The position numbers and the translations under genes were made by a program. Under the pieces are notes generated by a model, which worked only from the letters and a program-made list of their open reading frames with translations, was not told the origin of the DNA and made no database searches. From Tetracentron sinense (Eukaryota > Streptophyta > Magnoliopsida > Trochodendrales > Trochodendraceae), in NCBI GenBank assembly GCA_015143295.1, contig CM026554.1, forward strand, positions 49,970,627 to 50,034,626: a stretch of DNA of 64,000 nt, in the 5' to 3' direction. Below, piece by piece: positions 11,563-35,076 of this stretch (position 1 is the first letter of the stretch; every line of letters begins with the position of its first letter).

Positions 11563-12004
11563 ATGGCTGTGAAAGTGGCGATAATGAGTGTGACAATGTT
11601 GCTTTTGGTAGCTGTGGTTGCAAGAGTCGATGCTCGCTTCGACTTTTCTCCCATTCTCAACTCCATGCTTCAACAAACTGATAATTCTGGTATCAATCTC
11701 TACCACCTCTAGAGAGAGAAATTTTCAACCAAACATGAATATTAATATTGTTATTTAATATATATTTCTCTCATGTTTTGTTTTTGCAGTGAAGAAGGAT
11801 GTTGATTGTTGTGAAATTTGCATCTGTGCCATATCAGAACCTCCTCAATGCCGATGTACGGATACTAGGTCATATTGCTTTACATCCTGCAAAAACTGCT
11901 TGTGCACCAAATCAATTCCTCCTCAATGCTTTTGCGCCGACATCGCCGAGACCTGCCCCATTAAATCTTGCTCGGAGAAAGACGAGGGTCATAAAATAAT
12001 CTAG
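11563..12004 (+). CDS. Bowman-Birk serine protease inhibitor, copy 1 (intact)
   Basis: Two exons, 11,563-11,689 and 11,790-12,004, with a 100-base GT-AG intron in phase 1; together 113 residues. Residues 1-24 are a signal peptide (MAVKVAIMSVTMLLLVAVVA, then RVDA), so the protein should be secreted. A short propeptide follows, then a Bowman-Birk domain at about 49-103 with the full set of 14 cysteines. The two canonical loops are CAISEPPQC (P1 Ile57, P1' Ser58) and CTKSIPPQC (P1 Lys83, P1' Ser84). Known family behaviour predicts Lys to bind trypsin-like proteases; Ile at loop 1 would favour elastase- or chymotrypsin-like ones. The loop order is the reverse of soybean BBI, where Lys comes first. 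The TATA box is at 11,467; AATAAA signals are at 12,172 and 12,192. The exon join rests on splice consensus and on continuity into the CC motif. Confidence 0.93.
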
Positions 12005-12204
12005 TAGGCCTCAGTAGCAGCAGTACCATGTGTGCTTTAAGTCTCTAAAAAATCACACACATGTTTGTGTCTCTGTAATGGGATATTAGCAACTATCTTA
12101 AGCTGTGGTTCCTCTGTACCTACTAGGTTTTTTTCTCAAGTACTGTGTTGCTTTAGCTGTCGCTGAAGCTAAATAAATAAGACTCTGTTGGAATAAATCT
12201 ATAT

Positions 12205-14340
12205 TATGGGTTCAAAGCATCTACCTGGGTGTCAACTCCAGATTTTGGTTCACAAAACCTTATGGTAATCGTTTGGATCTTTTCAAAACTCACAAAATTG
12301 CAAACCAAAGTCGGGCGCATTGAAACACATTATTTGTAGTCTTAATGAGCCATCTAATTATACTGCTTAATTAAACTCGAGAGTCCTTGCTTAATTAAGC
12401 AGCTTAATGATACTTATGTGGTAAGCCACTTCTAATCAACGTGTACAAAAACTATACAGTTGTATTGCTTTTTCAAGTGAGAATCTTTTGTCGAGATGCG
12501 TACGAAGATTTTCTATGGAGCCAAATCCTCTACGGTAACCGGATTTGCCAAATCCGGTTTTCACCCTTTGAGGTTAACACGTATCCCTTTTGACACCCCT
12601 TAACTCTGATTAAGATTTACCCATCCATTCTTGGTTTTTTTTTAAAAAATATTAATTTTTTTTGAAAATATTTTAATAATAAAAGAACTTGAAAACAGTT
12701 TTTTAATTTTATAAAAGGAACTAATATTTAAAAAAAAAACTAAGAATGACTAGTTGAACCCTAGGGGTAGGTAATTCTTACCACTTTAAAGAGGTGTCAA
12801 AAGGGACGTGGAGACCTCAAGGTGATAACCGGATTTGTGTACCGGATAGGCTTCTTTTTTTTTTTTTTTTTTATAGAATCTGAAAATTAAAATGAACACG
12901 TGACTAGAAAAGGGATAAGACACTCTACGAGGCAACCCGGGATTATTTCATTTAAAACATGGCTACAGATATGGATACCTGTCGCGCGATATGGATACCT
13001 GTCGCGCGCTATCTCCTTTGATAAATAATTCTAGGAGTTATTAACCAGTTACGTACAATTATTATTTTTTGTCAGTATTAGAAATTAAGACCACCACGTA
13101 CCATTTTAATTTATATGAGAGTATTATAAATTATGACCACCACGGCACCACCTACCATTTTAATTTAGGAAAATAGTTAACATACCTTTGATATTTGTAA
13201 GCATCCTAATTTTGCATCCTTTTAGTTTCGTTTTACACCTCTAAAATCCCTCTTTTCAAGTTCTTCGATTCCAAAAAACGCCGTTCAGGTAAAAAATGAT
13301 CAAAATGCCCTTAAGGTGAAAAATGATCTAGATACCCTTGGAAAAGTGCTAAAAAGTTGTCATTTTGTCCAAAATGATTTTATAAATTTTTTGATGAATT
13401 TTGGCTATTTTTAGGATTAAATTAGACTTAAAACGGTAGAAAATTATCAAAGTGCCTCTAGAGTGTAAAATGATTAAAATGCCTTAAAAAGTGTTGAAAA
13501 ATTTATGTTTTATCTAAAATATTTTTCTGGATTTTATTAGTTCAATTTTGACTATTTTTGGGCTTCAAACGGACTAAAATGGCTTTTCGACGAATCGGAG
13601 TGCGACATGTGGCAAATAAAAAAATAAAAAAATGATTTTGTTGACCCCTTAAATAGGGGCGCTGCTTCAAACAGTGCCCCCTTTGGGGCCTGCTCTCTTT
13701 TAGTGTGTCGGCAAGCTTATTTTGCATAACTCGGCTAGGGGCGCTGCTTCAAATAGATGTGGATACATGTTGCTATCTCTTTAGATAAATAATTCTAACT
13801 CAAGGACTTATGAGTCAGTTACATACAATTTTAATTTTTTTGTCGGTATTAGAAATTAGGGTCACCATGTACCATTTTAATTTATGCGAGAGTATTAGAA
13901 ATTAGGACCACCACGTACCATTTTAATTTATGCGAGAGTATTAGAAAGTATATGGGATATTCATTTGCATTTTAATTTAGGAAAATTGTTAATGTGCCTG
14001 GGATATTCATTTGCAAACCTAAGTTGGGTTGTACTTGCATACCTTCCTAACTTGTCATGTGTTCTTTTTAACATCTATTAAGGAGGACTACATGTTTGTT
14101 TCTCGGTTTTCCATTTCCCTATTCAAAATGAACAATTGTCTTTTCCACAAGGTGCTGCGAGGAGTGGCATCTCGTCCTACCTTTTTGCAAGTGTTATTTT
14201 TAAGAATCAGATTCTTTTGCCAGCATCACCGTGTCTACTTCTCACATCAACCATATATTTTATATACAAAGCCACATATAGCTCGACACCATGCCTAATG
14301 GTAACACATTTAAGGATAAAATTCGTAAAATGAATAAGTC
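12205..14340. other. Inhibitor copy 1 3' flank and shared repeat spacer
   Basis: No gene. Contains a fold-back repeat (about 12,553-12,845), a tandem copy of a 20-base unit GATATGGATACCTGTCGCGC at 12,971-13,010, several ACCACCACGTACCATTTTAA repeats (13,080-13,930) and a segment at 14,110-14,300 that recurs at 16,665, 34,110 and 39,930. Most of it is parallel to 32,330-34,400. Confidence 0.6.
12553..12845. repeat. Fold-back MITE-like repeat
   Basis: Inverted arms: AAATCCGGTTTTCACC, GAGGT, CACGT and CCCTTTTGACACC on the left return as reverse complements at 12,790-12,845. The middle is AT-rich. The same family occurs at 15,590, 43,666 and 46,807. No clear target duplication was found. Confidence 0.6.
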
Positions 14341-14620
14341 TTGTGAAGACGAGTAAATCTTCGTAGTTTTGACAATAGATGAGAGATCGGTATTCAAATT
14401 GAGTACGAGCCCGTGTTCTTCAGGACAATGGATTCGTTATCCTGAAAACGAATGTAGTAGTTGTATTCTTTGGCAATAGTTATTTTATCTGTATTCATAT
14501 ACACAACGAATCCATGCTTAAGTCAATAACGAGACCGACTCACAGAACAAAATAATCAGGAGGTGATCATTTTACTCTATTGTTAGGTGAAAAAAATTGT
14601 CTTGACATTTAATGCATTTA

Positions 14621-15043
14621 ATGATGAATGTGACAATGTTGCTTTTGGTAGCTGTGGTCGCAAGAGTCGATGCTCACTAAGACCTTTCTCCCATTCTCAA
14701 CTCCATGCTTCAACAAACTGATAAATTTGGTATCAATCTCTACCACCTCTAGAGAGAGAAATTTTCAACAAAACATGAATATTAATATTGTTATTTCTAT
14801 ATATTTCTCTCATGTTTTGTTTTTGCAGTGAAGAAGGATGTTGATTGTTGTGAAATTTGCATCTGTGCCTTAATATATCCTCCTGCATGCCGATGTACGG
14901 ATACAAGGTCATATTGCTTTCCATCCTGCAAAAACTGCTTGTGCACCAAATCAAATCCTCCTCAATGCTTTTGCGCCGACATCGCCGAGACCTGCCCCAT
15001 TAAATCTTGCTCGGAGAAAGACGAGGGTCATAAAATAATCTAG
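14621..15043 (+). pseudogene. Bowman-Birk inhibitor, copy 2 (broken)
   Basis: Exons match copy 1: 14,621-14,729 and 14,829-15,043, with the splice sites conserved and a 99-base intron. The first part of exon 1, the 5' UTR and the TATA box of copy 1 are absent; homology begins at the internal ATG-ATG-AAT codons. An in-frame TAA at 14,678-14,680 (codon 20, where copy 1 has TTC) ends translation right after the signal peptide. Exon 2 is still fully open with 14 cysteines. Its loops are CALIYPPAC and CTKSNPPQC, so loop 1 has the unusual P1-P1' pair Leu-Ile instead of the canonical P1' Ser. Likely a 5'-truncated tandem duplicate that lost its promoter. Confidence 0.85.
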
Positions 15044-15589
15044 TAGGCCTCAGTAGCAGCAGTACCATGTGTGCTTTAAGTCTCTAAATAATCACACACA
15101 TGTTTGTTTCTCTGTAATGGGATATTAGCAACTATCTTAAGCTGTGGTTCCTCTGTACGTACTAGGTTTTTTTCTCAAGTACTGTGTTGCTTTAGCTGTC
15201 GCTGAAGCTAAATAAATAAGACTCTGTTGGAATAAATCTATATTATGGGTTCAAAGCATCTACCTGGGTGTCAACTCCAGATTTTGGTTCACAAAACCTT
15301 ATGGTAATCGTTTGGATCTTTTCAAAGCTCACAAAATTGCAAACCAAAGTCAGGCGCATTGAAACACATTATTTGTAGTCTTAATGAGCGATCTAATTAT
15401 ACTGCTTAATTAAACTCGAGAGTCCTTGCTTACTTAAGCAGCTTAGTGATACTTATGTGCTAAGCCACTTCTAATCAACACGTGCACAAAAGCTATACTG
15501 TTGTATTGCTTTTTGAAGTTTGAATCTTTATAGAGATGCGTACGAAGATTTTTCTATGAAGCCAAATCCTCTATGGTAACCGGATTTGC

Positions 15590-15905
15590 CAAATCCGGTT
15601 ATCACCCTTTGAGTTTAACACGTGTCCCTTTTGACATCCTTTAACTGTGATTAAGATTCACCCATCCGTTCTTTGTTTTTATTAAAAAAATATTAATTCT
15701 TTTTTTAAAATATTTTAATATTAAAAAAACCTAAAAAACAGTTTTTTAATTTTAAAAAAAGAATTAATATTTTTTAAAAAATACTAAGAATGAGTTGTTG
15801 AACCCTAGGGGTAAGTGATTCTTAACTACAGTTAAAAGATGTCAAAAGAGACGTGCCGACATCAAGGGGTGATAACCGGATTTGTGTACAGGATATGGCT
15901 TCTTT
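15590..15905. repeat. Fold-back MITE-like repeat
   Basis: Arms with AAATCCGGTTATCACCC, CACGTGTCCCTTTTGACATC on the left and their inverted partners at 15,838-15,890 (GATGTCAAAAGAGACGTG, GGTGATAACCGGATTTG). Same family and same position relative to the inhibitor gene as 12,553-12,845, so it was carried along by the tandem duplication. Confidence 0.6.
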
Positions 15906-16272
15906 TTCTGTAGAATCTGAAAATTAAAATCAACATGTGACTAGAAAAGGGATAAGACACTCTACGAGGCACCCCCAGATTATTTCATTTAAAACATGGC
16001 TAGAGATGTGGATACCTGTCGCTATCTCCTTAGATAAATAATTCTAACCAAAGGAGTTATGAGCCAGTTACGTACAATTTTAATTTTTTTTTATCCATAT
16101 GAGAAATTAGGACCACCACGTACCATTTTAATTTATATGACAGTATTAAAAATTATGACCACCACCTACTAATTTAATTTAGGAAAATATGGGAAAATAG
16201 TTAACGTACCTTAGATATTCATTTGCTTTTTAATTTAGGAAAATAGTTAATTTACTTGAGATATTCATTTGC

Positions 16273-16380
16273 AAACCAAAGATTGGACTTTATTCGTCCA
16301 GACCTCCTCTTAAATTCTTATCCCAATTTGTGAGTATTTAAGAGGGGGGCATAGACCAATAAAATCTAGCTTTAAGTTTG
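16273..16380. repeat. Short palindromic element
   Basis: About 105 bases folding back on itself: ATTGGACTTTATTCGTCC and CTCTTAAAT on the left pair with ATTTAAGAGG and GACCAATAAAATC on the right. A cleaner copy is at 33,694-33,800. Possibly a minimal MITE; class unknown. Confidence 0.6.
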
Positions 16381-16429
16381 CAAATATATTTCCGTATCAC
16401 TATCACTATCACTGTCACTGGGACCACCA

Positions 16430-17171
16430 TCAATTATTTATTGAGATTAACTATGAATAAGGTTCCGGTTGAATAATTAATTGGAGCAACTCAAAAAAGG
16501 CAATTCAAAAGTGCAATCGATTTTCTCCGGCAAATGCTTGAGTATCGTATCTGGCATAATCTCATCTCGCACATTTTGTTGGGTTGTACTTGCACACCTT
16601 CCCAACTTGTCATGTGTTCTCTTTAACATCTATTAAGGAGGACAACATGTTTATTTCTCAATTTTCCCTTCCCTATTCAAAAAGAACAATTGTCTTTTCC
16701 ACATGGTGCCGCGAGGAGTGGCATCTCGTCCTATCCTTTTGCAAGTGTTATTTTTAAGAATAAGATCCTTTTGCTAGCATCACCGTGTCTACTTCTCACG
16801 TCAACCACGTATCTTTATACACGAAGCCATATATAGCTCGACACCTCGCCTAATGGTTTGAACTAGAAAAAGATATCATCGTCTCATAAAAATACATTTA
16901 AAATTTTGAAGTTGACAATGCCCTCAACAGCACCGACTAAAGGGGATCCCAATTAGCTCATTTTAATTTTATTATAGTTAATATTTTTAATTATAAATTT
17001 AAAAAAAAATTGAGCTTAAGGGTTAATGTATCTTAGCTATAAATAGTTAAAGAAAATTGAAAATGATCACGTGACTAGAAAAGGGATAAGACACCCTTTA
17101 CTAGGCAACCCAAGGTGGGGATTATTTCGCTTAAAACATCCCTATAGATATTGATACCTGTCGCTGCCTCC
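16430..17171. other. Fold-back arm fragments between elements
   Basis: No gene. Holds a partial left arm of the long fold-back family (16,440-16,640) and a copy of the 14,110-14,300 repeat at 16,665-16,870, with a CCATATATAGCTCGAC word. A further copy of the GGGATAAGACAC repeat follows at 17,080-17,170. Confidence 0.5.
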
Positions 17172-17174
17172 TTA

Positions 17175-17432
17175 GGTGGCATTTGTTAACACTAGTTTAA
17201 AAATAAGTGCATATTTGAAAATTTTGCTTAGTTAGATTTTAGTTAAGTTGAAGGTTAATTACATGTCTACTTTTAGGGATTTTAGGGGTAAAAACCTTTA
17301 CTTTTTAAATAAGCATAATTTTCAGATAATCACTTCTTTGTAGACTAGTGTTAACAAACGCCACCTAAATTCCAACTAAGCATTATTTTCAAATAAACAC
17401 TTTTTTTTAGACTAGGGTTAACAAACACCACC
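17175..17432. mobile_element. Tourist-like (PIF/Harbinger) MITE
   Basis: 258 bases flanked by a TTA duplication (17,172-17,174 and 17,433-17,435), the target size used by PIF/Harbinger elements. Termini are GGTGGCATTTGTTAAC on the left and, inverted, GGTGGTGTTTGTTAAC on the right. The parallel sequence at 16,020 and 13,010 reads CTCCTTAGATAAATAA without the insert. A second, internal copy of the right end lies at about 17,343-17,370. Confidence 0.75.
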
Positions 17433-17444
17433 TTAGATAAATAA

Positions 17445-18300: not shown

Positions 18301-19060
18301 TTTGTGACTTTTTTTTTTGGGGTGAAGGTAATAACACCACAAGGCAAAGCTATAGTCATGAGAAAGGAGACTACACACTCAAGCGCACACACACAAACAC
18401 AACCACACACACCCTCACACACCCTCAAATGAGTTAGGTTTGGGATCACCTCGAAGTTGATGTAGGAGAGGAGTCCGCTAGTACCCAATCAGAAGGCACC
18501 TCGCAACTCCTTCACACTGACCAGATTTATGTGTACATGCCTTGAACATGCAAAAGGGGTGTATGACATCTTCCAGTTGGTGCTTAGTGCTGGCGGCCTC
18601 CTCGCCAGCACCAACCGGAGAAAATCCTAACTCAAGGAGGTCACGTATAATTTTAATTTATTTATCTTTTTTTTTTTTTTTTTGAGATATACATTTAGGC
18701 CGCAACACCGATTAGGTGTTAGTATCTGTTCAATTTATTTGTCGGTATTAGAAATCATGAGTCAGGACCACCACATACCACTTTAATTTATATGAGAGTA
18801 TTAGAAATTAGGACCACCACGTACCACTTTAATTTATATGAGAGCATTAGAATAGGACCACCACCTATTATTTTAATTTGAGGAATGCTACCCCTAATAT
18901 CAGTCAACCTATACTTTCACCCTTAACCAACCACTTGTTCACTCTTTGGTCAAAAAATGCTTTAATCACTATAAAGTAGACAAGTGATTGGTTGTGGGTG
19001 AGAGAACGGATTGATTGAGAGTATGCCTAGCACTCCTCTTTTAATTTATATGTGAGTATT
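18301..19060. other. Repeat spacer without gene
   Basis: Contains a CA-rich patch (18,378-18,420), a repeat shared with 20,325-20,510 (GGTTTGGGATCA to CACCAACCGGAGAAAATCC) and three copies of the GGACCACCAC-TACCA-TTTTAATTT unit. No plausible gene. Confidence 0.5.
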
Positions 19061-19065
19061 GGGAC

Positions 19066-20404: not shown

Positions 20405-20732
20405 AGCATTGATTTATTTGTATACACCTTGATAAACACGAAAAGGGGTGTGCGGCACCTTCCAATTTGAGCTGGCGGTCTCCTCACCGGCACCAGCTAG
20501 AGAAAATCCTAAGCTAGTCACGTACAATTTTAATTTTTTTGTTTGAGTATTACGAGTTATTACCACCACCTATATACGATTTTAATTTGTAGTGAAGTAA
20601 TGGGACTACCCTCACTTAATTCTTTTATTGAGATTAACTATGAACAAGAGCTCCAATGAAACAACAACCAGAACAATGCAAAAAAGGCAACGGGTTTTCT
20701 CTAGCAGATGGCCAAGTATCGCAATCGGGCAT

Positions 20733-21075
20733 AGGGGTGGATCCAGGAATTTTCTTGGGGGGTCGAAGTATATGTATCAAGAAAATTAATGACTTTGAGG
20801 TATGTGGCTTTAGGGTTCGGGGTAATGGGTCTATTGTAGCCATAAAGTTCATTAATCTAAAGTTTATTTAAAGTACAACAATAAAGAGTAAATAATTGCA
20901 ATTAGGACTGAATTCTTTAAAATTATAACATATTCTTATAAAAGGCTTGTTTACGATTTAAAAAAATATTTAAAGGACTTAATGGTAAAAAAAAACTAAA
21001 TATTATATAATTAAATTATAAATTCAAAAATTTAAGGGCTGCTAAATAAATAGAAGAAGTTAAAAGAAAAACATA
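20733..21075. repeat. Short insert with hAT-like left end (block B)
   Basis: Block B counterpart of the insert at 2,558-2,888, with left end AGGGGTGGATCCAGG. It sits at the same place in the fold-back left arm, so it was present before the block duplication. Confidence 0.4.
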
Positions 21076-21468
21076 GAAAGGTGCTTTACTAAGGAGGTGA
21101 TAGCATGCATCTCACACGTTTCGTTGGGTGGTACATGCACACCTCCCTGCCTGTCATGTGTTCTCTTTAATATCTATTAACTATGGTTAAAATTCATTTG
21201 CTCTTAGACTTAAAAAATCAATATATTTTAAAAAAATTTTAACCTTGGTTATGATTCACTCATCCATGTGGTTAATTTTTTTAAAATATGTTTTTTCTAA
21301 AAACTAAGTTTAAATTATTTACCCAAAGGGTGAGTGAATCTTAATCACAATTACTTGATAATAAAGAGGACACATGACGAGCTGGGGAGGTGTGCACGTA
21401 CCACACAATGGAATGTGTGAGATGTATGCATGTTATCACCTCTTTAATTATTAAAACACCTTTGCACG

Positions 21469-24400
21469 TGGTGTGCTCATGTTAAATTAACCCGAATGCA
21501 CACTTTCTATTGTAAGATAGATGCAAAACGGGGCCAATCCACAGAAACTTGTTAAATGGGTACTAAGATTAATTTGGAATTTCTTAATAGATTTAATAAA
21601 AACCGATTTAAAATTTTTATGCTAAGATGATAGAACATGATTGTTTTGAGGGGACTGGGGAATTCCTTGCTTTTGGTAATTCCTTTGGAAACAGGGCGGA
21701 CCACCCTGAAATTGGATAGGTTCATTCTATCATTATGGGAAATTTGGATGAAACCTATTGTTAAGGTGATATGTCTAACTGAATGAATTCGGTGTGGATT
21801 TCCTAAAAGTGTTATACCCGTTTATGGCATTGGCTTGCTCTGCCTTGATAGTTGGCAAGTTTGGGGAATTTTCCACAATGAGTTCAGAACTATCACATAG
21901 TAGCCACATTGCAGTTGGTTCAGTCAAACTCCTCAAAGAGTTGTGGTCATATTGGGGGTTCTTGTTTGCCGAGATTGTCAAGACATCAAATTTTTTTGTC
22001 AAATTGTTTACCCCATTGACTAGATTAGACATGACCTTCTTTAGATCTGGATCTGTCTTCCATTCATATGATCCTTGACTTCAAGATCCTATCTCTTCTC
22101 TCTCATATTCATCCCTGTTACTCCTCCAATTTTGGAAATTCTCTGCTAAGTCTACCAAGAAATCATATGCTTGGGTTGGAGTCTGTCTTATGATTTTGCC
22201 TTGGTGCATAGAATCTATCAAGGTATACTGACCAGTTGTTAGTCCTCTGTAGAAACAATGGACTAATTGAGTTTTTTCAATCCCGTGGTGCGGACATTTG
22301 ACAAAAAAAATGGAATCTTTTCCATGTTTGAGAAAATTCCTCCTCTACTTTACCCCTAAAATTTCTAACTACATCCTTAATTTTCTCAGTTTTGACGATT
22401 GGGTAGAATTTGGCCATGAACTTTTTGGACATTTCATCCCATGTTGTGATGTAATTTGGAGGAAGTGAATTCAATCACGCAGTGGCATGATCTTCTGGGA
22501 ATAGGGGAAATAACCACAACTTGACACTCACGTTGTCCACGTTTTGGTTCCTAAATGTCTGACAAATTGTCAAAAACTTGATTAAATGAATATAAGGTTG
22601 TTTACTCTCAAAACCATGAAATTTGGGTAACATGTTGATAGTTGCAAGCCTGATTTCAATTTATTTGCTGCCACTTCCGGCAAAACTATGCATGTCGGTG
22701 GTTTAGTAGAGACAGGAGCAAAAAACTCATTCAGAGTCCTTTCTAAAGGATTTGTCATTTAAGAGAAAATAGAAAAATCCTCAATATATGTGATGGGAGT
22801 AGTTTTGAGTTCTACTTTGATTAAACAACTTCTCACATGTACCCAAGTGCACTTAAATCGGGGCATCGACTTTTAAGAAAAATCCTAATATAATCTAATC
22901 TAATCCTGATGATGCGCACACAACCAAGCACGGTCTAATTGAAACACACCAACAACCTATTTTTTTCCTAATTAACTAGACTGCTCCTAACTGGTTTGGA
23001 GAGTACACCTAAACCTCTAACTCGATCTTATGAAACAAAGTCGACGAGGTAAGCCCCAGGTTGAGTGGTGGGTTCACAATGCACTAGGCAAGAATCCCGC
23101 TTAAAAACCAGTTCTCCTAGAACGGAGACTATCATACTTTAAAGGGACAGGGCTTCCTAGTCATCGAGTTTGGTTAAAGAATGCAATTGACTCAACTTTT
23201 GATGCGACTTCATCCTAATGAGCTCGAAGGTCCCAAGGCCAATGTCTAATCAAATTTATTTCAGATTGATTGGTTGTGTGCTAAAGTGGGTTGTACTTAA
23301 ACCTATGGGTAAGAATCCGGTGATTAAATCCGGTTCTTATCTTGTCATGTATTTTGAAGTGCCCTCACTAAAAACGGTGCTCCAATTAAATTGGTGTCAA
23401 ATATGCAAGCACTCTAATTTAAAAACATCAAACAATCCCCGATAACAAGTAAAATATTCACGGTTAAGGATTAAAATACGTACCTCCCACTCTAGGTGGG
23501 GGAAGATCCAATTGAGTCGACCCGAGCCACCAAGACCAAACTTGGTATACGAACCCGAGGTGCAGAGAGAGTATAATCCAACCCTCCTCCTTCCTTACTC
23601 TATTTATTACAATTTGGGCCTTCCCAAATGATTTGAAAAGTCCTACAACAATGGTCTAAAAAAAAAATACATAAATAAATAAAAAAACTATTCATTTTTT
23701 TTTCTCCGAATCCTCCTTTGGTTCCTTATCTTTTTAGATCTCCTTCTCTAATTTTCTGCAATAAGAATGAAAACTCAAAGTAATATAAAAAATGAGAATA
23801 AAAAGACAAAAAAAATGAATGAAAATAAAAATCTAAAAAAAATAAACTAAAGTAAAACAAAAAAATTAATCTAAACCTAAACTGAAAATTACAAAAATAA
23901 AAATTTCTATATTTTTTTTTTCAAATAGATAGAAATAAACCTAACCTAAAAGAAAATCAAACCCAAAAATAAATTCTAGATTTTTTTAGAACATTTTTTA
24001 AAAATTAGTCCCCGGCAATAGCGCCAAAATTTGGTATACTCAAATTAAATTAATCAAACGCACATTTTCTATTGTAAGATAGCGGCAAAACGGGATCGAT
24101 CCATAGAGACTTGCTAAATGAGTACTAAGATTAATTTGAAATTTCTTAATAAATTTAATAAAATCGATTTAAAATTTTTATGCTAAGATGATAATTAAAA
24201 ATAAAATAAAACTAATGGAACAAATAAGAAAAGAAGAAATCTTTTGTTAAAGTAGGATGAAAATATGGGATCCGGATTTCACCAAAAAATATAATAAGAT
24301 TAATCTTATAATTAATTTCTAAAGTCTTCAATTGAACACGATCCAATAAGCAAGCAAATGCTTTGGATCAGAAGATATGTCTTATGAAAATTTTAATTAA

Positions 24401-25293
24401 AATCCTGATTTAATATTTTCGTAACAATATAATTTTTGAGTATTTAAAAATTAAAATAAGGATAAATCTTATCTGGTTCTTAGTTTCCTCCTTTGCCCCT
24501 TATCACGCGTTAGCCGAGCATTGTAGCATTCAAGATAAGACCAATGAAATAAATCATTCTACTATTCATTGATGTTTAATCGACTTTTTTTACACTACTC
24601 TCTCTTCCACTTTTACAAAATAGAAAAATAAAAAAATAGAAAGAGTCTCTTAGGTGAGAGAAAGAAATAGAGACCAAAAAAAGTAAATCCTTTTATATCA
24701 CTCAATTTTCCAATCAAATCAGTCAAAAGAGTAAGGAAGATGAGAGAAAAGACGAAGGGAGGGAAAGCAAAAACCGTTTTTAACCCTTATTTCTTCTCCT
24801 CCATGCATAAGCCTCGACCCCTTAAACGTCCAAATTAGGAAATTCTCGTGAAATCCAATTTTGTTTCCCTTTGAGTCTTCTTTCCAATGCCTTAAATATT
24901 GCCTTAATCTTATCTCTCAATGAAAAGTTATGATCAAATTAGTGAGTCATGGTCAAATTAGGTGAGAATCTGGGAAATCTTCCTTTTTTGGGGATTTGCT
25001 GCTCAATAACAATACCCACGAAACTTACTTGCTTTTCTTGTAAATTTGGTTATCAAATATCAGCTACCCTATTTTCTCCTTGATTTAATTCAATTAGATG
25101 AGTGAGCCTTGAATAGATTTTCTCTCTGATGGGCTTTTTAGCTTTAAATTTTTCAATTTGGTCTCAAATATGTTAAATGCCTTCTAACTCCTACATAAAA
25201 GTAAAAAGATTATAATTAGAATAATTAAGACAAAATAAAAAACTACTAAATGTAAATAAAAAGGCAATTATTAACATAATGATATGCATATGT
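21469..25293 (-). mobile_element. Ty3/gypsy-type LTR retrotransposon, broken (block B)
   Basis: Block B copy of the element at 3,282-9,479, with the same GCACG target duplication (21,464-21,468 and 25,294-25,298). The 5' LTR is at 24,032-25,293 in minus-strand sense, followed by a TTTTGGCGC primer-site-like motif and a CCGGGGA stretch. A gag-like fragment with the typical TTWDEMSKKFMAKFYP word lies on the minus strand at 22,277-22,474. It is about 3.8 kb, shorter than the block A copy, and clearly broken. The shared insertion site shows it was copied with the block rather than inserted independently. Confidence 0.85.
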
Positions 25294-25560
25294 GCACGTG
25301 TTGGTTAAAGAGTCTGTGCCTGGTGTGATACTCAAGCATCTAACATAGAAAATCCATTGCCCCCAAAAAAATGTCTTGGGAAGTGATAGTTTGGGAATTT
25401 TGTATACAAAGAAAGATATTTTTTAACATTAAATTTTTTTCATAAATATTCCTTCCCAAGGCATTTTTTGGTTTGCTCCTTTGACTGCTCAACTGCTGTT
25501 CATAGTTAATCACTTATGCAATCAACCGGAGCTCTTGTTCATAGTTAATCTCTTATTTAT

Positions 25561-26943
25561 TTATTTATTTTTATTTTTTTTTGTAGAACAACCTTTTTAA
25601 TGTACTCTACCTATTTTAGGTTACGAGGAGTGCTGCCAAGTAGATTTTAAAATTTTCTAAACTCTCACTTTGTGTGCAACACACATGGCTGCTAACCATT
25701 TCACAATGGAAAAAAGGTGCTACCCATGTCACAAGGGAAAAAAAATCAGGGGAAGAAGTGTTGACCACACTCAAAAAGCCCTCTTTTACTCTTGTTAAGA
25801 AATTCACTCATAAGGTTAAAACTCTTTTACTTTAATTTTTTTAAAAATGAAGGTTAGATTTATAAATCTTAGGAATGAATGAATCTTAACCACAATTAAT
25901 ATGAGTTAAAATGGACACATGGGTCCTGTAGAGCATGGGCTAGACAATTTTGGTCTGGTGAGCGCCAAACCAAATTCCATTCCATTTTAATCTCAACGGA
26001 TTGCTGAGATAACAAGAAAAAGTAGCTACGAATCGCATTCACAACTAGAGCTTGAAAATTTGCTTTTGAGGCTAGCATTTCTCTTCAGGGTTTATATAGA
26101 TAAGGGAAAACTACCTAAATGACCCTAAGGTCTATCCCCAATACATAAATGAGCTTTGACAATTTAACGTAACTCTTATAACCCCCACATGTGAAAACAG
26201 TTACATGTGTGAGAATTCTATTATCTTTGTCTGGAACCACAATGATGATCAGTGTCTCCCTCTCATAGAGGCATATATGTCTCTCTCTCTCCCTCTACTA
26301 TCTTCCGAAGTTCTCTCATCTTATTCCCTTACAGGGATCCTTTTTTTAACGTGCACCATATGTGTCCATTTAAAGGGCTTCTGTATCCCATTTCATGTAT
26401 GGTGATTCTCGGTAGTAAAAGTTTAATTTGGGGGTGATTTTTTTGGAGTAATGGGAGATTGGTGGGGAAGCAAGGGAGATGCAATGCACCATATGTGTCC
26501 AATCTACTCGTTGCAGTAGTTGTCCAACACGTTTAAAAGTAGCTTTTGACTACACCATCCTCACCCCAAAACTAATAATAGAACCCAGATTAAAAGGATA
26601 GACAACAATCAAATGGTAATATGATTTCAAGGAAATATTTCAACTTGACTCACCATAATTACTTTGCTTTCAACGGAAACAAAGAATCCCTTCGCTCAAT
26701 CGGCCTAGGAATGAAAAGAGTTCCAGCCGTCACATGAATCTCACCGACATCTCATTACACTGATCGATCGGCCCCTAAAGGGGTCTTATTCGTAAAAGAT
26801 TTCGATTCTTGCCTTTCCATATGTTGTTTACCCCGATTAATCCCTATCTCACCTCCCCTGCCTTGTACAAGACTGTGTGGTGGGTTCGTTCTTGATCATG
26901 ATTTTGGTTGGGGACATTTGGTTTTTAATTCAATGGTTAGGGG
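25561..26943. other. Upstream region of inhibitor copy 3, left of the hAT insertion
   Basis: Parallel to about 9,761-11,255. No gene. The minus-strand frame at 25,896-26,078 is the block B counterpart of the weak RNase H-like frame at 10,101-10,283. The sequence resumes after the hAT element at 31,133. Confidence 0.5.
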
Positions 26944-26951
26944 CATATGAG

Positions 26952-29900
26952 CAGGGGCGGAGCCAGGTGGGGGCACGTGCCCCCACTCCACTTTTGCAAA
27001 AAATAAAATAAAACTCTAGTTTTAGTTTAAATTAAAGGGCTGATAGCCCATGACAGCAGGGGTGAAGCTTGGCCGAGCACCTATGGAATTTTTTTTTGTT
27101 AACTCAATACAAGTTGTAAGTTGAAGGGAAAAACCAAAAACGAAAAAGAAAGAAAGATTTGGGGGTTAGGGCATGAGACTGAAGTCTCAGCCAAACCCCT
27201 CTTCAATCTTCCTCAACCTCTAATCCACACCTCCGGCTCCGGCCACCTCACGACCAACTTCGAATACTCAGGTTGGTCTCTCTCTCTCGAGTCTCCACCC
27301 TCTTTCTCTCTCTCTCTCTCTCTCTCCAACTCTCTCTCTCTATATTGGAGTTGGACTGTTGCAGTGTTGCCGTTTGGAGTCTTGGACTCTTGATAATCTT
27401 TGGTAGGAATTTGCTAGCCCTAGTTGCAAGTCTTCCACATATGCAACTTGGTGGCCACAGGCCCACAAATGTCAAACTTTTTCTGTTTTCTAATTTTTTT
27501 ATGAGTTAAGATATGACTAATCTTGCGTCTGTGGAACTTTTGGAGCAAATGCGATTGGGAATAGCACTCCTCTCTTTGGTAATTTGTATAAATTATAATG
27601 AAAAACTGACAGTATTGCATTAATGGTGTATTTGGATTTTGGAGAATTGGGGCAGAAAACTTGACAGATTTTTCTTGGGATTTTGGAATCAATTTTTTTT
27701 TTGTGGGATTGCAGGCTTGCAGCTGAGGCCTGAGATTGTAGTTTGTATTTTGTAGATAAAGATTCAGGATTCTCCTATTGGGTTGAGAGTTACCGTTGCC
27801 GATTTGAGACTTGAGACTCAGTTCTTCTCCAGTGTGCTATTTTGCTTCTCTGATCTAATCTTGAGGTGAGAGAGTTAATTTTTTTTGTCTTTTATCTTGC
27901 AACCTTTTGGATTATTTCATGTAATCAATATTCATGTCAGTATAATTTTAGGCTTATTTGGCCATTTGGGTGAATAATCATTAATGGTAAATAATGATAA
28001 TTGTCTAATTGATTTGATTATTTGAATCTGTTTTTTTTTTTTTTTTTAAATATGTTGGGTGTTTTTATAGTTTTGTAAAGCTGATAACTTAACTGATTAG
28101 TAAATCATGAAAGATAATTGATTTGATTTGATTATTTGTATCATTGTATGCTTATTTTTTAAAAAAAAATGTTTTGAGTGTTTTTGTAGCCATGACTTGG
28201 TTGATCTGCATAATTAGTTTCTATAATTCTATTTGTGATTATTTCTATCAAAACTTATTGTCATTTATATTTTCATGTAATTGTGTTGCATTTTTCTTAC
28301 CAATACTTCATGTTCAATTATTCGTATCATATGTATATTCACGTTAAGTGACTTAGTGAGTAATAATAATTATATTCTTTACACACAACTATTGTAGGAA
28401 ATAAGAATTAGAAAATATGTAACTATATACAATGATGAATTTATATGATGGACAAAATGTGTAATTTGGTGGTGCACCCCTATATAATGGATGACATGCT
28501 CTAGATTATATATAAATATTACTAAAATTGATTTAATTTTTATTGAATCAATTTAATTTTTGTACCAATTATGGACAAGTTTTTCAAAAGAAAATCAATG
28601 ACCGACCTATCGTCGCCTATCATTAAAAAAGATTGTCGTGATCAAGTGTAACCTACCTCTTTGTCAAGTCATCTAGAGGTTAACTTGACAAATCTTTCTG
28701 CAGATCCCGGGTTACGAATTCAAATTTCAAATGACCATCCTAATGAACAGGATGAAATCCGAAGAGCATATTTGTAAAGGGGTCCTTGCTAGCCTCGTAA
28801 TCACAATTTTCCTAGAACAAAATTTGGAAAAAAGTTACGACGGTTTAATCCTACATGGTTTAATGAATATGGTAGCTGGTTGGAGTACAGTATAATAAAA
28901 GATGTTGCGTTTTGTCTATGCGGTTATCTTTTTAGGCTTGATAATTATAGAGAGCAAGCGGGTTCCAATTCTTTTGTAATTGAGGGATTTACTAATTGGA
29001 AAAAGAAGGAAATATTTGAAATTCATGTTGGAGGTCCCAGTAGTGTTCACAACCAAGCTTATAGAGCTTGTAAAGATTTATTAAATCAAAAGCAGCACAT
29101 CTAGACAGTTTTTTTGAAACAATCAGACCAAGTGCGAAGGAAATACCCAGTCCGTTTGAATGCATCAATTGATTGCATTCGGTTCATTTTACAACGAGGA
29201 TTGACTTTTCGTGGACATGATGAATCTGAGGACTCGAAGGACAAAGGAAACTTTCTTGAACTGTTGCAATTTCTTGCCAATCACAATGAAAGTATTAAAA
29301 ACGTCGAGTTGCAACATGCTCCTGAAAATCTCAAATTGATTGCGCCCGATATTCAGAAAGACATTGTGAATGTGGCTGCCACTGAAACCACTAATGTTAT
29401 CATCAATGAGGTTGGAGATTCCCTATTTTCTATTTTGATTAATGAATCTCATGATATATCTATCAAGGAACAAATGGTTGTTGTTTTATGTTATGTGAAC
29501 TAGCGGGGATCTGTGACCGAACTTTTTTTATGCATCGTACATGTTACTGAAACTACAGCTGTATCACTCAAAGCGGCGGTCGATGAAACATTCTCCAAGC
29601 ATGAATTGAGTATAACGAGATTACGTGAGCAAGGTTATGATGGGGCTAGTAATATGCAAGGTGAATTCAACAACCTTAAAACGTTCATCATGAAAGAAAA
29701 TGAATATGCGTTTTATGTTCATTGTTTCGCACATCAACTTCAAGTGGCACTTATTGCTGTTGCAAAGAAACAAAATCGAGTTAGTTTGTTCTTCACCTTG
29801 GTTTTCAATGTGGTGAATGTTGTTGGAACCTCATGCAAATGCCGTGACATTCTTCGAGAGAAACAAGTTGATAAAGTTATTGAAGCGCTTAGTAGTGGTG

Positions 29901-31124
29901 AGCTATCAAGTGGGCAGAGCTTAAATCAGGAGACTAGCCTAAAAGGGGCTGGCGATACCCGTTGGGGCTTGCACTATGATACATTGATAAGCTTGAATGT
30001 CATGTTTTCTGCTATGATTGACATACTTGAGATTGTTGATAAAGATGGTTCAAGAGGCGAACAAAGAATTGAAGTGAATGCCTTATTAGATTGGACACAA
30101 TCTTTTGAGTTTGCATTTTTCCTACATTTGATGAAAAATATTTTGAGAATTACAAATGAATTATCAAAGGCATTGCAGCGAAAAGAACAAGATATTGTGA
30201 ATGTCATGGCCCTGGTATGAGTATCCAAGCAAAGACTGCAAATGATGATAGATAATGAGTAAGGTTCTCTCCTCACTGAAGTTTCTTTATTTTGTGTCAA
30301 ACAGAATATCGTCATTCCTAACATGGATGATAAGTTTGTAGCCCCTGGGTGATTATGACGCAATGCTGAAGATATTACAAACTTGCATCGTTACCGTGCT
30401 GAATTTTTTTATACTATAATTGATATGCAACTTCAAGAACTCAATGATCGTTTTAATGAGGCGAACATTGAATTACTTCTTTGCATGGCATGCTTGGATC
30501 CAAATGATTCATTTTACGCATTCGACAAGCAAAAATTGATTCCTCTTGCTGAATTTTATCTAGTCAAATTTTCAGCAATAGATCTCATAGCACTGGACAA
30601 TTAGCTTAAGACTTACATTATGGATATGCGCTCTAACAGTGAATTTTCAGATTTGAAATGAATTAGCGACTTTGCTGAGAAGATAGTCAAAATGAGAAAA
30701 AACATATTATATCCACTAATTTACTTGTTGGTGACACTCGTGCTAATCCTACCAGTGGCCACTGCCACAATTGAGAGAGCATTTTCTGCTATGAAAATTA
30801 TAAAGAACCGTCTACGCAATCGAATGGGAGATGAATGGATGACTGATTGTTTGGTTGTATATATCGAGAAAGACATATTTGATTGCATCGAGAATGAGGC
30901 GATCATTCAACAGTTCCAAAATATGAAAACCCGTCGAGGACAATTGTAAAAATATTTTTTTTTGTATTAAGAAAAAATTTTTGGGTGTAAACAATGTAAT
31001 TAATGTATTTATGTTACTTTTCTGTTATTTGCATTTAGTAAAAAGTGTGGTAAATTAGTTATTGGCAATATTGATCGAGCATCGTGTGCCCCCACTACAA
31101 GAAAATTCTGGCTCCCCACCCCTC
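26952..31124 (+). mobile_element. hAT DNA transposon, nearly full length
   Basis: 4,173 bases flanked by a perfect 8-base duplication CATATGAG (26,944-26,951 and 31,125-31,132), the hAT target size. Block A at 11,248 shows the unoccupied site GGGGCATATGAGTCCAAAT. Terminal inverted repeats are imperfect: CAGGGGCGGAGCCAG on the left, GAGGGGTGGGGAGCCAG inverted on the right. A GGGGGCACGTGCCCCC palindrome lies just inside the left end. A long AT- and CT-rich leader (27-28.5 kb) precedes the transposase reading frame at 28,571-30,949. It inserted only in block B, so after the duplication. Confidence 0.93.
28571..30949 (+). pseudogene. hAT transposase (TTF-type/ZMYM1-like), broken by stops only
   Basis: One uninterrupted frame of 793 codons starting MDKFFKRKSM runs to a terminal stop after KTRRGQL. 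Order of parts: basic N-terminus; TTF-type zinc-finger region with FTNWKKKEIFEIHVGG (about 29.0 kb); DUF4371-like and RNase H-fold catalytic region with GYDGASNMQGEFN and HCFAHQLQVAL (29.6-29.75 kb) and DTRWG (29.95 kb); C-terminal hAT dimerisation motif ATIERAFSAMKIIKNRLRNR (30.75-30.82 kb). By eye there are about eleven in-frame stops (near 28.65, two near 28.78, 29.10, 29.50, 30.22, 30.26, two near 30.35, 30.60 and 30.66 kb) and no net frameshift. It therefore encodes no functional transposase. Decay by base substitution alone fits a fairly young, methylated copy. Confidence 0.92.
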
Positions 31125-31345
31125 CATATGAGTCCAAATAAAAAATAATTCAACACGCGGTTGTTTTCAAATGTGGGGGTTATAAAAGTTAAGTTAAATT
31201 GCAAAAGGTTATTCATGTGGTCTTGATAGACATTAGGGTCATTTAGGTAATTTTCTTTATAGATAAGATATTTGGCCCGTTGGACCACCACAAAAAAAAA
31301 AACGAAGGAAAACAATTGGTCTACCCATTTTGCCCATTGGAGGTC

Positions 31346-31352
31346 TATAAAA
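31346..31352 (+). promoter_or_regulatory. TATA box of inhibitor gene 3
   Basis: TATAAAA in the context GGAGGTCTATAAAACGATCG, 98 bases before the ATG at 31,450, as in copy 1 apart from a longer GA-repeat in the leader (31,415-31,441). The hAT element ends only about 220 bases upstream, so distal promoter sequences present in copy 1 are displaced by 4.2 kb here. Confidence 0.7.
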
Positions 31353-31449
31353 CGATCGCCTTCGCCAGATGAGTCTTCACAAGGTCCACCGTAAAAGGAG
31401 AGTAACACTACTAAAGAGAGAGAGAGAGAGAGAGAGAGAGTAGGGAAGA

Positions 31450-31891
31450 ATGGCTGTGAAAGTGGCGATGATGAGTGTGACAATGTTGCTTTTGGTAGCT
31501 GTGGTTGCAAGAGTCGATGCTCGCTTCGACTTTTCTCCCATTCTCAACTCCATGCTTCAACAAACTGATAATTCTGGTATCAATCTCTACCACCTCTAGA
31601 GAGAGAAATTTTCAACCAAACATGAATATTAATATTGTTATTTAATATATATTTCTCTCATGTTTTGTTTTTGCAGTGAAGAAGGATGTTGATTGTTGTG
31701 AAATTTGCATCTGTGCCATATCAGAACCTCCTCAATGCCGATGTACGGATACTAGGTCATATTGCTTTACATCCTGCAAAAACTGCTTGTGCACCAAATC
31801 AATTCCTCCTCAATGCTTTTGCGCCGACATCGCCGAGACCTGCCCTATTAAATCTTGCTCGGAGAAAGACGAGGGTCATAAAATAATCTAG
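31450..31891 (+). CDS. Bowman-Birk serine protease inhibitor, copy 3 (intact)
   Basis: Exons 31,450-31,576 and 31,677-31,891 with a 100-base phase-1 GT-AG intron give 113 residues. By eye it differs from copy 1 only at residue 7 (Met for Ile, inside the signal peptide), so the mature inhibitor is predicted to be identical: 14 cysteines, loop 1 CAISEPPQC with P1 Ile57, loop 2 CTKSIPPQC with P1 Lys83. Expected role: secreted or vacuolar defence or storage inhibitor that binds two serine proteases at once. The core promoter is conserved. AATAAA signals are at 32,059 and 32,079. Near identity with copy 1 reflects a recent block duplication or gene conversion. Confidence 0.93.
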
Positions 31892-32107
31892 TAGGCCTCA
31901 GTAGCAGCAGTACCATGTGTGCTTTAAGTCTCTAAATAATCACACACATGTTCGTTTCTCTGTAATGGGATATTAGCAACTATCTTAAGCTGTGGTTCCT
32001 CTGTACCTACTAGGTTTTTTTCTCAAGTACTGTGTTGCTCTAGCTGTCGCTGAAGCTAAATAAATAAGACTCTGTTGGAATAAATCTATATTATGGGTTC
32101 AAAGCAT

Positions 32108-32323
32108 GACAAAAGATTACCTCTGGTGGCTGCCCGAGCTAAGCGCTCGGCATCTACAAAGCATAGGACACGTGGCCATTTTAAAGGGAAAAGCTGTGTG
32201 GCAAAAATCAAAATGATGAGGACAGGTGAAATGACTTCTGTCTACTAACATCTGCCACATGCCCAATGTTTTGTGGATGCCCGAGCGCTTACCTCGGGCA
32301 GCCACCAAAGGTAATCTTTTGCC
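32108..32323. mobile_element. Mutator-like MITE in the copy 3 3' flank
   Basis: 216 bases flanked by a perfect 9-base duplication TCAAAGCAT (32,099-32,107 and 32,324-32,332), the Mutator target size. Inverted ends of about 50 bases begin GACAAAAGATTACCTCTGG on the left and GGCAAAAGATTACCTTTGG on the right (inverted). Copies 1, 2 and 4 show the unoccupied site, so it arrived after the block duplication. It contains no gene. Confidence 0.9.
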
Positions 32324-32332
32324 TCAAAGCAT

Positions 32333-34400
32333 CTACCTAGGTGTCAACTCCAGATTTTGGTTCACAAAACCTTATGGTAATCGTTTGGATCTTTTCAAAA
32401 CTCACAAAATTGCAAACCAAAGTCAGGCGCATTGAAACACATTATTTGTAGCCTTAATGAGCGATCTAATTATACTGCTTAATTAAACTCGAGTCCTTGC
32501 TTAATTAAGCAGTTTAATGATACTTATGTACTAAGCTACTTCTAATCAACACGTGTACAAAAACTATACAGTTGTATTGCTTTTTCAAGTTTGAATCTTT
32601 TGTAGAGACGTGTACGAAGATTTTTCTATGAAGCCAAATCCTCTACGGTAACCGGATTAGCTAAATCCGGTTTTCACCCTTTGAGGTTAACACGTATTCC
32701 TTTTGACAGCCCTCAATTTACCCATCCATTCCTGGTTTTTTTAAAAAAATATTATTTTTTTTTTGAAAATATTTTAATAATAAAAAAACCTGAAAACAGT
32801 TTTTTAATTTTATAAAAAGAACTAATATTTTTAAAAAAAACTAAGAATGACTAGTTAACGTACCTCGGATATTTGTAAGCATCCCAATTTTGTGTCCCTT
32901 TAGCATCTTTTTATACCTCTAAAACCCCTTTTTTCACGTTCTTCGATTCAGAAAAACGCCTCTTAGGTAAAAAATGATCAAAATATCCCTAGGGTGAAAA
33001 ATGACCCAGATATCTTTGGAAAAGTGCTAAAAAGTTGTCATTTTGTCCAAAATGATTTTACAAATTTTTTGATGAATTTTGACTATTTTTAGGATTAAAT
33101 TGGACTTAAAACGATAAAAATTGATCAAAATACTTCTGGAGTGTAAAATGATCAAAATACCTTAAAAAGTGCTGAAAAATTCATGTTTTATCTAAAATAT
33201 TTTTCTGGATTTTATCAGTTCAATTTTAACTATTTGCGAGCTACAAACTGGCTAAAATGGCTTTTCGACGAATCGGAGCGCGACATGTGACAAATAAAAA
33301 AATAAAAAAATGATTTTTTTGGTCCCTTAAATAGGGGCATTGCTTCAAACAGTGCCCCCTTTGGAGCTTGTTCTCTTTTGGGGTGTCGGCAAGCTTATTT
33401 TACGTAACTGGGCTAGGGGCGCTACTTCAAATAGATGTGGATACTTGTTGCTATCTCTTTAGATAAATAATTCTAACTCAAGGAGTTATGAACCAGTTAC
33501 GTACAATTTTAATTTTTTTGTCAGTATTAGAAATTAGGGCCACCACGTACCATTTTAATTTATGCGAGAGTATTAGAAATTAGGACCACCACGTACCATT
33601 TTAATTTATGCAAGAGTATTAGAAAGTATCTGGGATATTCATTTGCGTTTTAATTTAGGAAAATTGTTAATGTACCTGGGACATTCTTTTGCAAACCTAA
33701 GGCTGGACTTTATTGGTCCAGACCCCCCTCTTAAATACTTACCCCACTTGGTGAGTATTTAAGAAGGGGGTATAGACCAATAAAGTCCAGCTTTAGGTTT
33801 GTAAATATATTTCCGTATGCCTATCATTGGGAGCACTATCAATTATTTATTGAGATTAACTATGAACAAGGGTTCCGGTTGAATAGTTAACTAGAACAAC
33901 TCAAAAAAGGCAACCGATTTTCTCTGGCAAATGCTTGAGTATCGTACCCGGGCATAATCTCATCGAAAGGTACATTATTAAAGAGGTAATAGCATGCATC
34001 TCACACATTTTGTTGGGTTGTACTTGCACACCTTCCTAACTTGTCATGTGTTCTCTTTAACATCTATTAAGGAGGATTACATGAGGATTACATGTTTGTT
34101 TCTCGGTTTTCCATTTCCCTATTCAAAATGAACAATTGTCTTTTCCACAGAGTGCTGTGAGGAGTGGCATCTCGTCCTACCTTTTTGCAAGTGTTATTTT
34201 TAAGAATCAGATCGTTTTGCCAGCATCACCGTTTCTACTTCTCAAGTCAACCACATATCTTTATACACGAAGCCACATATAGCTCGACACCATGCCTAAT
34301 GGTTTGAAATAGAAAAAGATACAATCATCTTTTAAAAACACATTTAAGGATAAAATTCGTAAAAGGAATAAGTGTTGTGAAGACGAGCAAACCTTCGTTG
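32333..34400. other. Inhibitor copy 3 3' flank and shared spacer
   Basis: Parallel to 12,215-14,340 but lacking the stretch from about 12,755 to 13,165. Both edges of the missing part carry TAGTT, so a microhomology deletion is likely. Holds the ACCACCACGTACCATTTTAA repeats and part of a fold-back arm (33,840-34,040). No gene. Confidence 0.6.
33694..33800. repeat. Near-perfect 107-base palindrome
   Basis: AAACCTAAGGCTGGACTTTA on the left is the inverse of TAAAGTCCAGCTTTAGGTTT on the right. The inner arms (GGGGGTCTGGACC type, CTTAAATACTTACC) also pair, leaving almost no loop. The related copy at 16,273 is less perfect. It is a compact MITE or foldback element, or a hairpin-forming site. Confidence 0.7.
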
Positions 34401-34654
34401 TTATGACAACGGATGTGAGATCCGTATTCAAATTGAGTACGAGCCCGTGCTCTTCAGGACAACAGATTCGTTATCCTGAAGACGAATGTAATAGCCGTAT
34501 TCTTTGGTAACAGTTATTCTATCCGTATTCACATACACAACGAACCTGTGCTTAAGTCAATAACGACACCGACTCGCAGAACAAAATAATCAGGAGACGA
34601 TCATTTTACTCTGTTGTTAGATGAAAAACACTGTTTTAGCATTTAATGCAATTA

Positions 34655-35076
34655 ATGATGAGTGTGACAATGTTGCTTTTGGTAGCTGTGGTCGCAAGAG
34701 TCGATGCTAGCTTCTACTTTTCTCCCATTCTCAACTCCATACTTCAACAAACTGATAATTCTGGTAGCAATCTCTACCAGCTCTAGAGAGAGAAATTTTC
34801 AACAAAACATGAATATTAATATTGTTATTTCTATATATTTCTCTCATGTTTTGTTTTTGCAGTGAAAAGGATGTTGATTGTTGTGAACTTTGCATCTGTG
34901 CCTTATCATATCCTCCTGCATGCCGATGTACGGATAATAGGCCATATTGCTTTACATCCTGCAAAAACTGCTTGTGCACCAAATCAATTCCTCCTCAATG
35001 CGTTTGCAGCGACATCGCCGAGACCTGCCCCATTAAATATTGCTTGGAGAAAGACGAGGGTCATAAAATAATCTAG
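34655..35076 (+). pseudogene. Bowman-Birk inhibitor, copy 4 (frameshifted at the exon junction)
   Basis: Exon 1 is 34,655-34,763, starting ATG-ATG-AGT like copy 2 and lacking the first codons and promoter of copies 1 and 3. Exon 2 is 34,863-35,076. Exon 1 is open (MMSVTMLLLVAVVARVDA, then SFYFSP). Exon 2 is one base shorter than in the other copies: GTGAAAAGGATG where copy 1 has GTGAAGAAGGATG. With the conserved GT and AG sites the inhibitor frame is therefore lost after residue 36 and another open frame is entered. In its own frame exon 2 still encodes 14 cysteines with loops CALSYPPAC (P1 Leu, P1' Ser) and CTKSIPPQC. Either a recent pseudogene or a gene with altered splicing. Confidence 0.8.

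Follow-up and report, generated by a model that had tools for sequence, protein, structure and literature searches.

Variation in the first reactive loop of Bowman-Birk inhibitor genes of Tetracentron sinense

When a gene for a double-headed protease inhibitor exists in several tandem copies, does one reactive loop change while the other is held, and is selection the cause? The question is raised by a 64,000-nucleotide stretch of the 1.16 Gb genome of Tetracentron sinense (C4:49970627-50034626; hereafter, the window), which contains four regions corresponding to exon 2 of Bowman-Birk inhibitor (BBI) genes (11790-12004, 14829-15043, 31677-31891, and 34863-35076; copies 1 to 4). The initial annotation of this stretch described the first reactive loop (loop 1) as diversified and the second (loop 2) as fixed, and it proposed that the copies had been selected against different proteases before two of them broke. 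We find that loop 1 is the most variable stretch of these genes among their close paralogues and that positive selection is the favoured, though unproven, cause of this excess. Loop 2 changes as well, and within the window itself the divergence separates one intact type from two broken copies.

A family of 16 loci and its reactive loops

All four exons of the window exceeded the Pfam cut-off for PF00228 (38.9-53.3 bits, with the cut-off being 20.4), each with two matched stretches. Two protein searches using different family members yielded an identical set of 16 BBI loci in the genome, more than the 13 matches of a search with the PF00228 profile only at E <= 0.001. In addition to the four loci of the window, one (L013, termed copy 0) is located 2.8 kb to its left, three others on C4 reach approximately 53 kb to its left, and the remaining eight are found on C3, C14, C21, and C23. 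One-half of the loci (8/16) constitute a group of close paralogues, clade A, comprising copies 0 to 4, L014 and L016 on C14, and L015 on C3; these are 95-99% identical to a single query made of exon 1 plus the intron (in copies 2 and 4, over the retained part only). The fourteen cysteines characteristic of MEROPS family I12 and PF00228 are encoded by 14 codons of exon 2, with no replacements across the eight clade A copies. Residues 4-54 of copy 4 align without gaps to the solved inhibitor 1mvz (MSTI), and both nine-residue Cys-to-Cys loops carry Ser at P1' and Pro at P3' in copies 1, 3, and 4, though not in loop 1 of copy 2, where P1' is Ile. The AlphaFold2 model, built from 7 sequences only, had a mean pLDDT of 49.1. 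Together with the wider explanation given below, and with the same moderate confidence, we assign the window family to tandem and dispersed secreted double-headed Bowman-Birk serine-protease inhibitors, inhibition being predicted from sequence. A separate observation concerns two of the dispersed members, L015/L064 (C3:32917629-32927628) and L016/L066 (C14:24832518-24842517), whose flanks differ by 0.3% over 6.6 kb; this near-identity reflects either a very recent inter-contig duplication or an assembly duplicate.

The loop 1 sequences are as initially reported, namely CAISEPPQC in copies 1 and 3, CALIYPPAC in copy 2 (14864-14890), and CALSYPPAC in copy 4 (34897-34923). Since exon 2 of copies 1 and 3 is the same except for one silent base, the window holds three versions of loop 1, not four, and four independent loops were rejected on this ground. 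A single intact type (copies 1 and 3) occurs in the window by this sequence comparison; further intact types lie outside it, i.e., CALSFPPQC in copy 0, CALSWPPQC in L014, and CAYSFPAQC in L015 and L016. In clade A, the changes in loop 1 are located at P1, P2', P4', and P5', the P1' residue is changed in copy 2 only, and the P3' proline is present in all loops.

For loop 2, the Lys-Ser pair was correctly reported for all four window copies, but the loop is not fixed: copy 2 (CTKSNPPQC, 14942-14968) has Asn at P2', where the other three copies have Ile (CTKSIPPQC; 34975-35001 in copy 4), and among the close paralogues outside the window L015 (C3) and L016 (C14) have CNLSNPPQC. Over the genome, invariance of loop 2 in the family is ruled out by its P1 residues in 15 readable loops (K 7, R 3, L 3, D 1, I 1), two-thirds of which (10/15) are basic. 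The P1 residues of the 15 readable loops 1 are L 7, Y 3, I 2, S 1, K 1, and R 1, and P1' is Ser in 29 of the 30 readable loops, with loop 1 of copy 2 (Ile) as the sole exception. These counts exclude a spurious loop-like match (CSDICNPSC) in L023 and take the loops of copy 4 from a separate reading; there is no readable loop 1 in L022 and no readable loop 2 in L024. A P1 residue of Leu, Ile, or Tyr directs such inhibitors to chymotrypsin- or elastase-like targets, and Lys or Arg to trypsin; the target proteases of the family members are predicted on this basis. An unusual combination was observed in L019 (C4:49917027-49917197), which has Asp at P1 of loop 2 (CTDSDPPQC), Ser at P1 of loop 1, and an altered C-terminus, and which has either an unusual specificity or is a decaying gene.

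The order of the loops, hydrophobic first and Lys second, is indeed reversed relative to soybean BBI, in which the Lys loop comes first (5j4s alignment). However, 9 of the 14 two-loop members of the genome pair a non-basic loop 1 with a basic loop 2, which makes the order a trait of the family rather than of the window copies. The CALSYPP loop of copy 4 recurs in its best PDB match, 6lh6, as the second loop.

Excess of change in loop 1

Among the eight clade A copies, 12 of the 21 nucleotides of loop 1 are variable, compared with 4/21 in loop 2, 21/170 in the rest of exon 2, 4/100 in the intron, and 35/198 in the 3' part. The difference between loop 1 and the two non-coding parts together (39/298) is significant (Fisher p = 8e-6, with sites treated as independent), as it is for the four window copies alone (7/21 vs. 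15/298, p = 1.7e-4). Sliding a 21-nt window along the gene (595 windows) placed loop 1 first in all three data sets, with nucleotide diversity (pi) of 0.236 vs. 0.122 for the best window elsewhere in 7 sequences, 0.222 vs. 0.144 in 4 intact distinct sequences, and 0.206 vs. 0.143 in the 4 window copies. L016, whose exon 2 is identical to that of L015, was omitted from these sets and from the maximum likelihood (ML) runs described below, and copies 2 and 4 were omitted from the intact sets. In pairwise comparisons, loop 1 exceeded the intron-to-3' region at p < 0.05 in 6 of the 10 pairs tested, most strongly for copies 1 and 2 (7/21 vs. 8/482 outside loop 1, p = 4e-7).

The ratio of replacement to silent rates (dN/dS) was estimated by partitioned codon ML, using a nucleotide-frequency codon model with kappa and fixed topologies. 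Loop 1 had dN/dS above 1 in all seven runs on close paralogues (p < 0.014, likelihood-ratio test). For the intact copies under three topologies the estimates were 4.1-5.1 (p = 0.007-0.013 against 1 and 0.007-0.008 against the rest); they were 6.4-9.7 with the broken copies added (p = 5e-6 to 9e-5 against 1) and 11.7 for the window copies (p = 7e-4). The proposed diversification of loop 1 therefore stands as an excess of change, with the reservation that copies 1 and 3 share one protein version. In the same paralogues, the dN/dS of loop 2 was 1.3-2.5, with no difference from the rest, and that of the cysteine codons was 0. At the depth of the whole family, which was represented by 8 of the 16 loci (omitting copies 2, 3, and 4, L016, L018, L022, L023, and L024) and 68 codon columns, each present in at least six of the eight sequences, loop 2 had a dN/dS of 0.44, below both the rest of exon 2 (p = 3e-4) and loop 1 (p = 0.006).

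The explanation that we prefer, and hold with moderate confidence, combines gene conversion with favoured changes of specificity. According to it, loop 1, with P1 mostly Leu, Tyr, or Ile and predicted chymotrypsin- or elastase-like targets, would be a rapidly changing specificity site, whereas loop 2, with predicted trypsin-like targets in view of its mostly Lys or Arg P1 (10/15), would be held under stronger constraint. Ectopic gene conversion would make the gene bodies alike, while amino acid replacements at the P1 and P2' positions of loop 1 would accumulate and persist, the most likely reason being that a shift in specificity against digestive or pathogen proteases is favoured. Of the window copies, 1 and 3 would then represent the one surviving, homogenised type, alongside the broken relatives 2 and 4 with their common repeat-associated 5' truncation.

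Several results weigh against this explanation. According to the initial annotation, selection on loop 1 would be refuted if loop 1, loop 2, and silent sites had the same substitution rate; the rates are not equal overall, but in the intact copies loop 1 differs from loop 2 only at p = 0.13 (0.006-0.018 with the broken copies). Outside the loops and cysteines, the dN/dS of exon 2 was indistinguishable from 1 in six of the seven runs and reached 2.7 in one (p = 0.04), and at family depth loop 1 (dN/dS 1.34) neither differed from the rest nor exceeded 1 (p = 0.34). Four of the ten pairs show no excess of loop 1 over the rest at p < 0.05. Several loop 1 codons differ at two or three adjacent bases, and when each codon change is counted as one event, the excess of loop 1 over other non-cysteine codons falls to p = 0.028 for all eight copies, 0.043 for the window copies, and 0.13 for the intact copies only. 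The ratios of replacement to silent changes, 8:1 in loop 1 and 29:5 in exon 2, do not exceed the neutral expectation. The flanks of clade A genes provide another yardstick, their divergence being 0.069-0.115 in 14 of 15 pairs and 0.003 between L015 and L016. The loop 1 excess over flank divergence is just p = 0.05 for the intact copies and 0.006 for the six distinct ones, and it is lost when multi-base changes are collapsed (0.21 and 0.12). The inputs of this test were set by hand (8 and 13 substitutions, 6 and 9 events, divergences of 0.095 and 0.09), the substitution counts being no higher than the minimum that the alignment requires. Moreover, 30 of the 55 informative-site pairs conflict with a single tree, and such mosaicism makes single-tree tests, including those above, too optimistic. 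Finally, constraint on the gene bodies could account for part of the similarity described in the next section. These results suggest that selection is weaker than the raw numbers imply.

They also lend weight to the best surviving alternative, relaxed constraint with clustered mutation, under which loop 1 drifts at the local neutral rate or a little faster, exon 1 and the intron are conserved or homogenised, and dN/dS is inflated by a handful of multi-base mutations within a T/A-rich stretch. The weakness of the tests on collapsed events, the marginal excess of the intact copies over their flanks, the dN/dS of about 1 in exon 2 outside loop 1 in most runs, and the similarity of loop 1 to the rest at family depth are all as expected from such drift. 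What makes it unlikely in our assessment is the pattern of conservation: no cysteine is replaced in eight copies, and change falls at P1, P2', P4', and P5', whereas P1' Ser in 29 of 30 loops and P3' Pro in all clade A loops indicate that loop 1 is not unconstrained. We retain favoured change of specificity as the leading explanation for the excess.

Probable gene conversion and the broken copies

The four window copies belong to two segmental units identified by self-BLAST, one at 2227-16901 with copies 1 and 2, and its duplicate at about 20405-35591 with copies 3 and 4; most of the aligned blocks are 88-93% identical. Copies 1 and 3 are intact, as defined by sequence alone: each has its start codon and splice sites, an exon for the signal peptide, and an exon 2 with both loops, which we take as an indication of function. 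Copy 1, on the plus strand, starts with the ATG at 11563, and its exon 1 (11563-11689), encoding the signal peptide and the start of the propeptide, is followed by a GT donor at 11690, a structure that matches copy 3 and copies on other contigs. Its exon 2 (11790-12004) is an open frame behind a CAG acceptor (11787-11789), matches PF00228 in two stretches (E = 1.8e-13), and on direct reading encodes loop 1 at 11825-11851, with Ile-Ser as the P1-P1' pair, and loop 2 CTKSIPPQC, with Lys-Ser, at 11903-11929. Copy 3, also on the plus strand, consists of exon 1 (31450-31576) and exon 2 (31677-31891), with the same two loops at 31712-31738 and 31790-31816. The exon 2 proteins of the two copies are the same, and the precursors differ by a single residue located in the signal peptide.

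This sameness probably arose through gene conversion. Over the tract 11610-12310, only 6 of 700 positions differ between copies 1 and 3 in a 50-base profile, compared with 10-14% in the four upstream bins of 11260-11460, 2-10% in the 200 bases downstream, and an overall flank mismatch of 0.080; the upstream edge of the tract may lie near 11460. Extended to the other copies, the simplest account would be that gene bodies are homogenised by conversion, and that loop 1 escapes it or is selected to differ. A more specific version, which we put forward only tentatively and regard as doubtful, is that conversion keeps the gene body near-uniform across C3, C4, and C14, while selection protects or promotes difference in a seven-codon loop 1 cassette, so that one head is renewed and the other remains as a more slowly changing anchor for trypsin. 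Copy 3 carries in its 3' flank an insertion of about 216 bp (32108-32323) that is missing at that place in the other aligned clade A copies; it has inverted ends, GACAAAAGATTACC ... GGTAATCTTTTGCC, is flanked on both sides by the 9-base direct repeat TCAAAGCAT, and resembles a small MITE-type element.

Copies 2 and 4 are broken. The native promoter and start codon are absent from both, with a high-copy repeat in their place, which in copy 2 occupies positions 14360-14615 as judged from its matches over the genome. Of 1271 first-look candidates for this repeat, 40 were scored as matches; two of these were copies 2 and 4 themselves, and the others were 82-86% identical and spread over many contigs. 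Both copies are on the plus strand. The exon 1 remnant of copy 2 (14621-14729) has lost the native start and contains an in-frame stop (TAA, 14678-14680), and its exon 2 (14829-15043) is open. By alignment, the exon 1 remnant of copy 4 (34655-34763) is truncated at the 5' end as in copy 2, and a one-base deletion near the start of its exon 2 (34863-35076) shifts the frame after canonical splicing. All cysteines are retained in exon 2 of both copies.

Since copies 2 and 4 share this truncation and lie in duplicate segments, the truncation either predates the duplication or was copied by conversion; most simply, it would be older than their split. The Ser-to-Ile change at P1' of copy 2 would then most simply have arisen after the loss of the native promoter and start, contrary to the proposed divergence under selection before two copies broke. 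As an adaptive innovation this residue was rejected, because the copy is truncated and the residue is found in 1 of 30 readable loops. In pea, a BBI mutant with P1' Ser replaced by Phe was predicted to be unable to bind chymotrypsin, and the TI1 peaks of this mutant lacked chymotrypsin-inhibitory activity, although its effect on overall activity was milder than that of a Cys mutant (PMC4534040). By this analogy, a bulky residue at P1' points to loss and not to a new target, and the Ile of copy 2 most likely reflects or causes a loss of function of loop 1. On its sequence the truncated copy 2 is apparently a dead gene, but expression from a new promoter, starting at internal Met codons still present, is possible.

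A second alternative takes the window pattern as mostly pseudogene decay, with copies 2 and 4 having died early and their loops having drifted thereafter. The common loss of promoter and start, the stop codon in copy 2, the frameshift in copy 4, and the confinement of P1' Ile and the PPA ending to the broken copies would all follow from decay. Nevertheless, we consider it improbable as the main cause, given that the loop 1 peak and dN/dS above 1 persist without copies 2 and 4 and that both have kept every cysteine in exon 2. Import of existing loops by short conversion tracts from distant family members, with diversity shuffled and not newly mutated, would account for the 20-base stretch of the copy 1/3 loop 1, TATCAGAACCTCCTCAATGC, that is identical in L017/L018 (C14), as well as for the site pairs incompatible with one tree, but it is similarly improbable, as P2' Trp is confined to L014, Leu-Ile to copy 2, and YPPA to copies 2 and 4, so that no outside donor is seen for them among the 16 loci, and SEPPQ could be ancestral.

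Relation to other inhibitors and neighbouring sequence

Hypervariable reactive loops are already known in serpins, Potato type II inhibitors, and Vigna BBIs; the comparisons below reflect the accessible parts of the cited texts. A close likeness is to the double-headed BBI1 and BBI2 of Vigna, in which positive selection was reported at P1 of the first loop across 42 taxa, with a caution from the authors about drift; that residue is commonly Arg or Lys there, with Ala, His, or Glu in some species, whereas here it is mostly hydrophobic, and, unlike in Vigna, P2' varies most, among paralogues of a single genome (PMC12894363). Potato type II inhibitors of Solanaceae, although another inhibitor family, similarly combine positive selection at the reactive-site P1 with purifying selection on the cysteine scaffold, and duplication and concerted evolution have been discussed for them (PMC2259423). 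The BBI genes TI1 and TI2 of pea likewise lie in close linkage and differ diagnostically at P2', P1, and P5', but they are two legume genes studied through induced mutants (PMC4534040). In wheat, BBI genes have also expanded in tandem, and one branch is an exception to Ka/Ks below one, but these are of the monocot type, in which the second (chymotrypsin) loop is non-functional (PMC7995804). Conversion followed by selection was proposed for diverse reactive centres in a review by Ohta, citing Hill and Hastie (1987) and Ohta (1994), which treats protease inhibitors generally, with serpins as the example, and does not name BBI in the relevant text (PMC3966226). For Bowman-Birk inhibitors combined with gene conversion, a literature search listed one paper only, that on pea (PMC4534040). 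The present BBI family has a first loop that is mostly non-basic, and P2' contributes markedly to its variation.

If the preferred explanation is true, these genes offer a compact natural experiment, in which inhibitors with very similar backbones differ most at loop 1, with the slower trypsin-type loop of the same protein as an internal control, and they would allow one to ask whether one head tracks changing herbivore or pathogen proteases. They also call for caution with raw counts of tandem copies, which overstate diversity when some copies are homogenised and others are pseudogenes.

Other features of the window lie between and beyond the BBI genes. Between copies 2 and 3, two adjoining frames separated by a stop (29114-30220) match successive parts of DUF4371 (PF14291), a domain presumably linked to hAT-type transposases. 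Repetitive arrays at 41093-41940 and 49260-52270 yield long repetitive frames, with a spacing of about 56 bp near 50.6-51.2 kb and other spacings as well. On the minus strand, a frame at 53392-54027 matches the MYB-CC LHEQLE motif (PF14379, E = 1.7e-8) and possibly belongs to a MYB-CC transcription factor gene.

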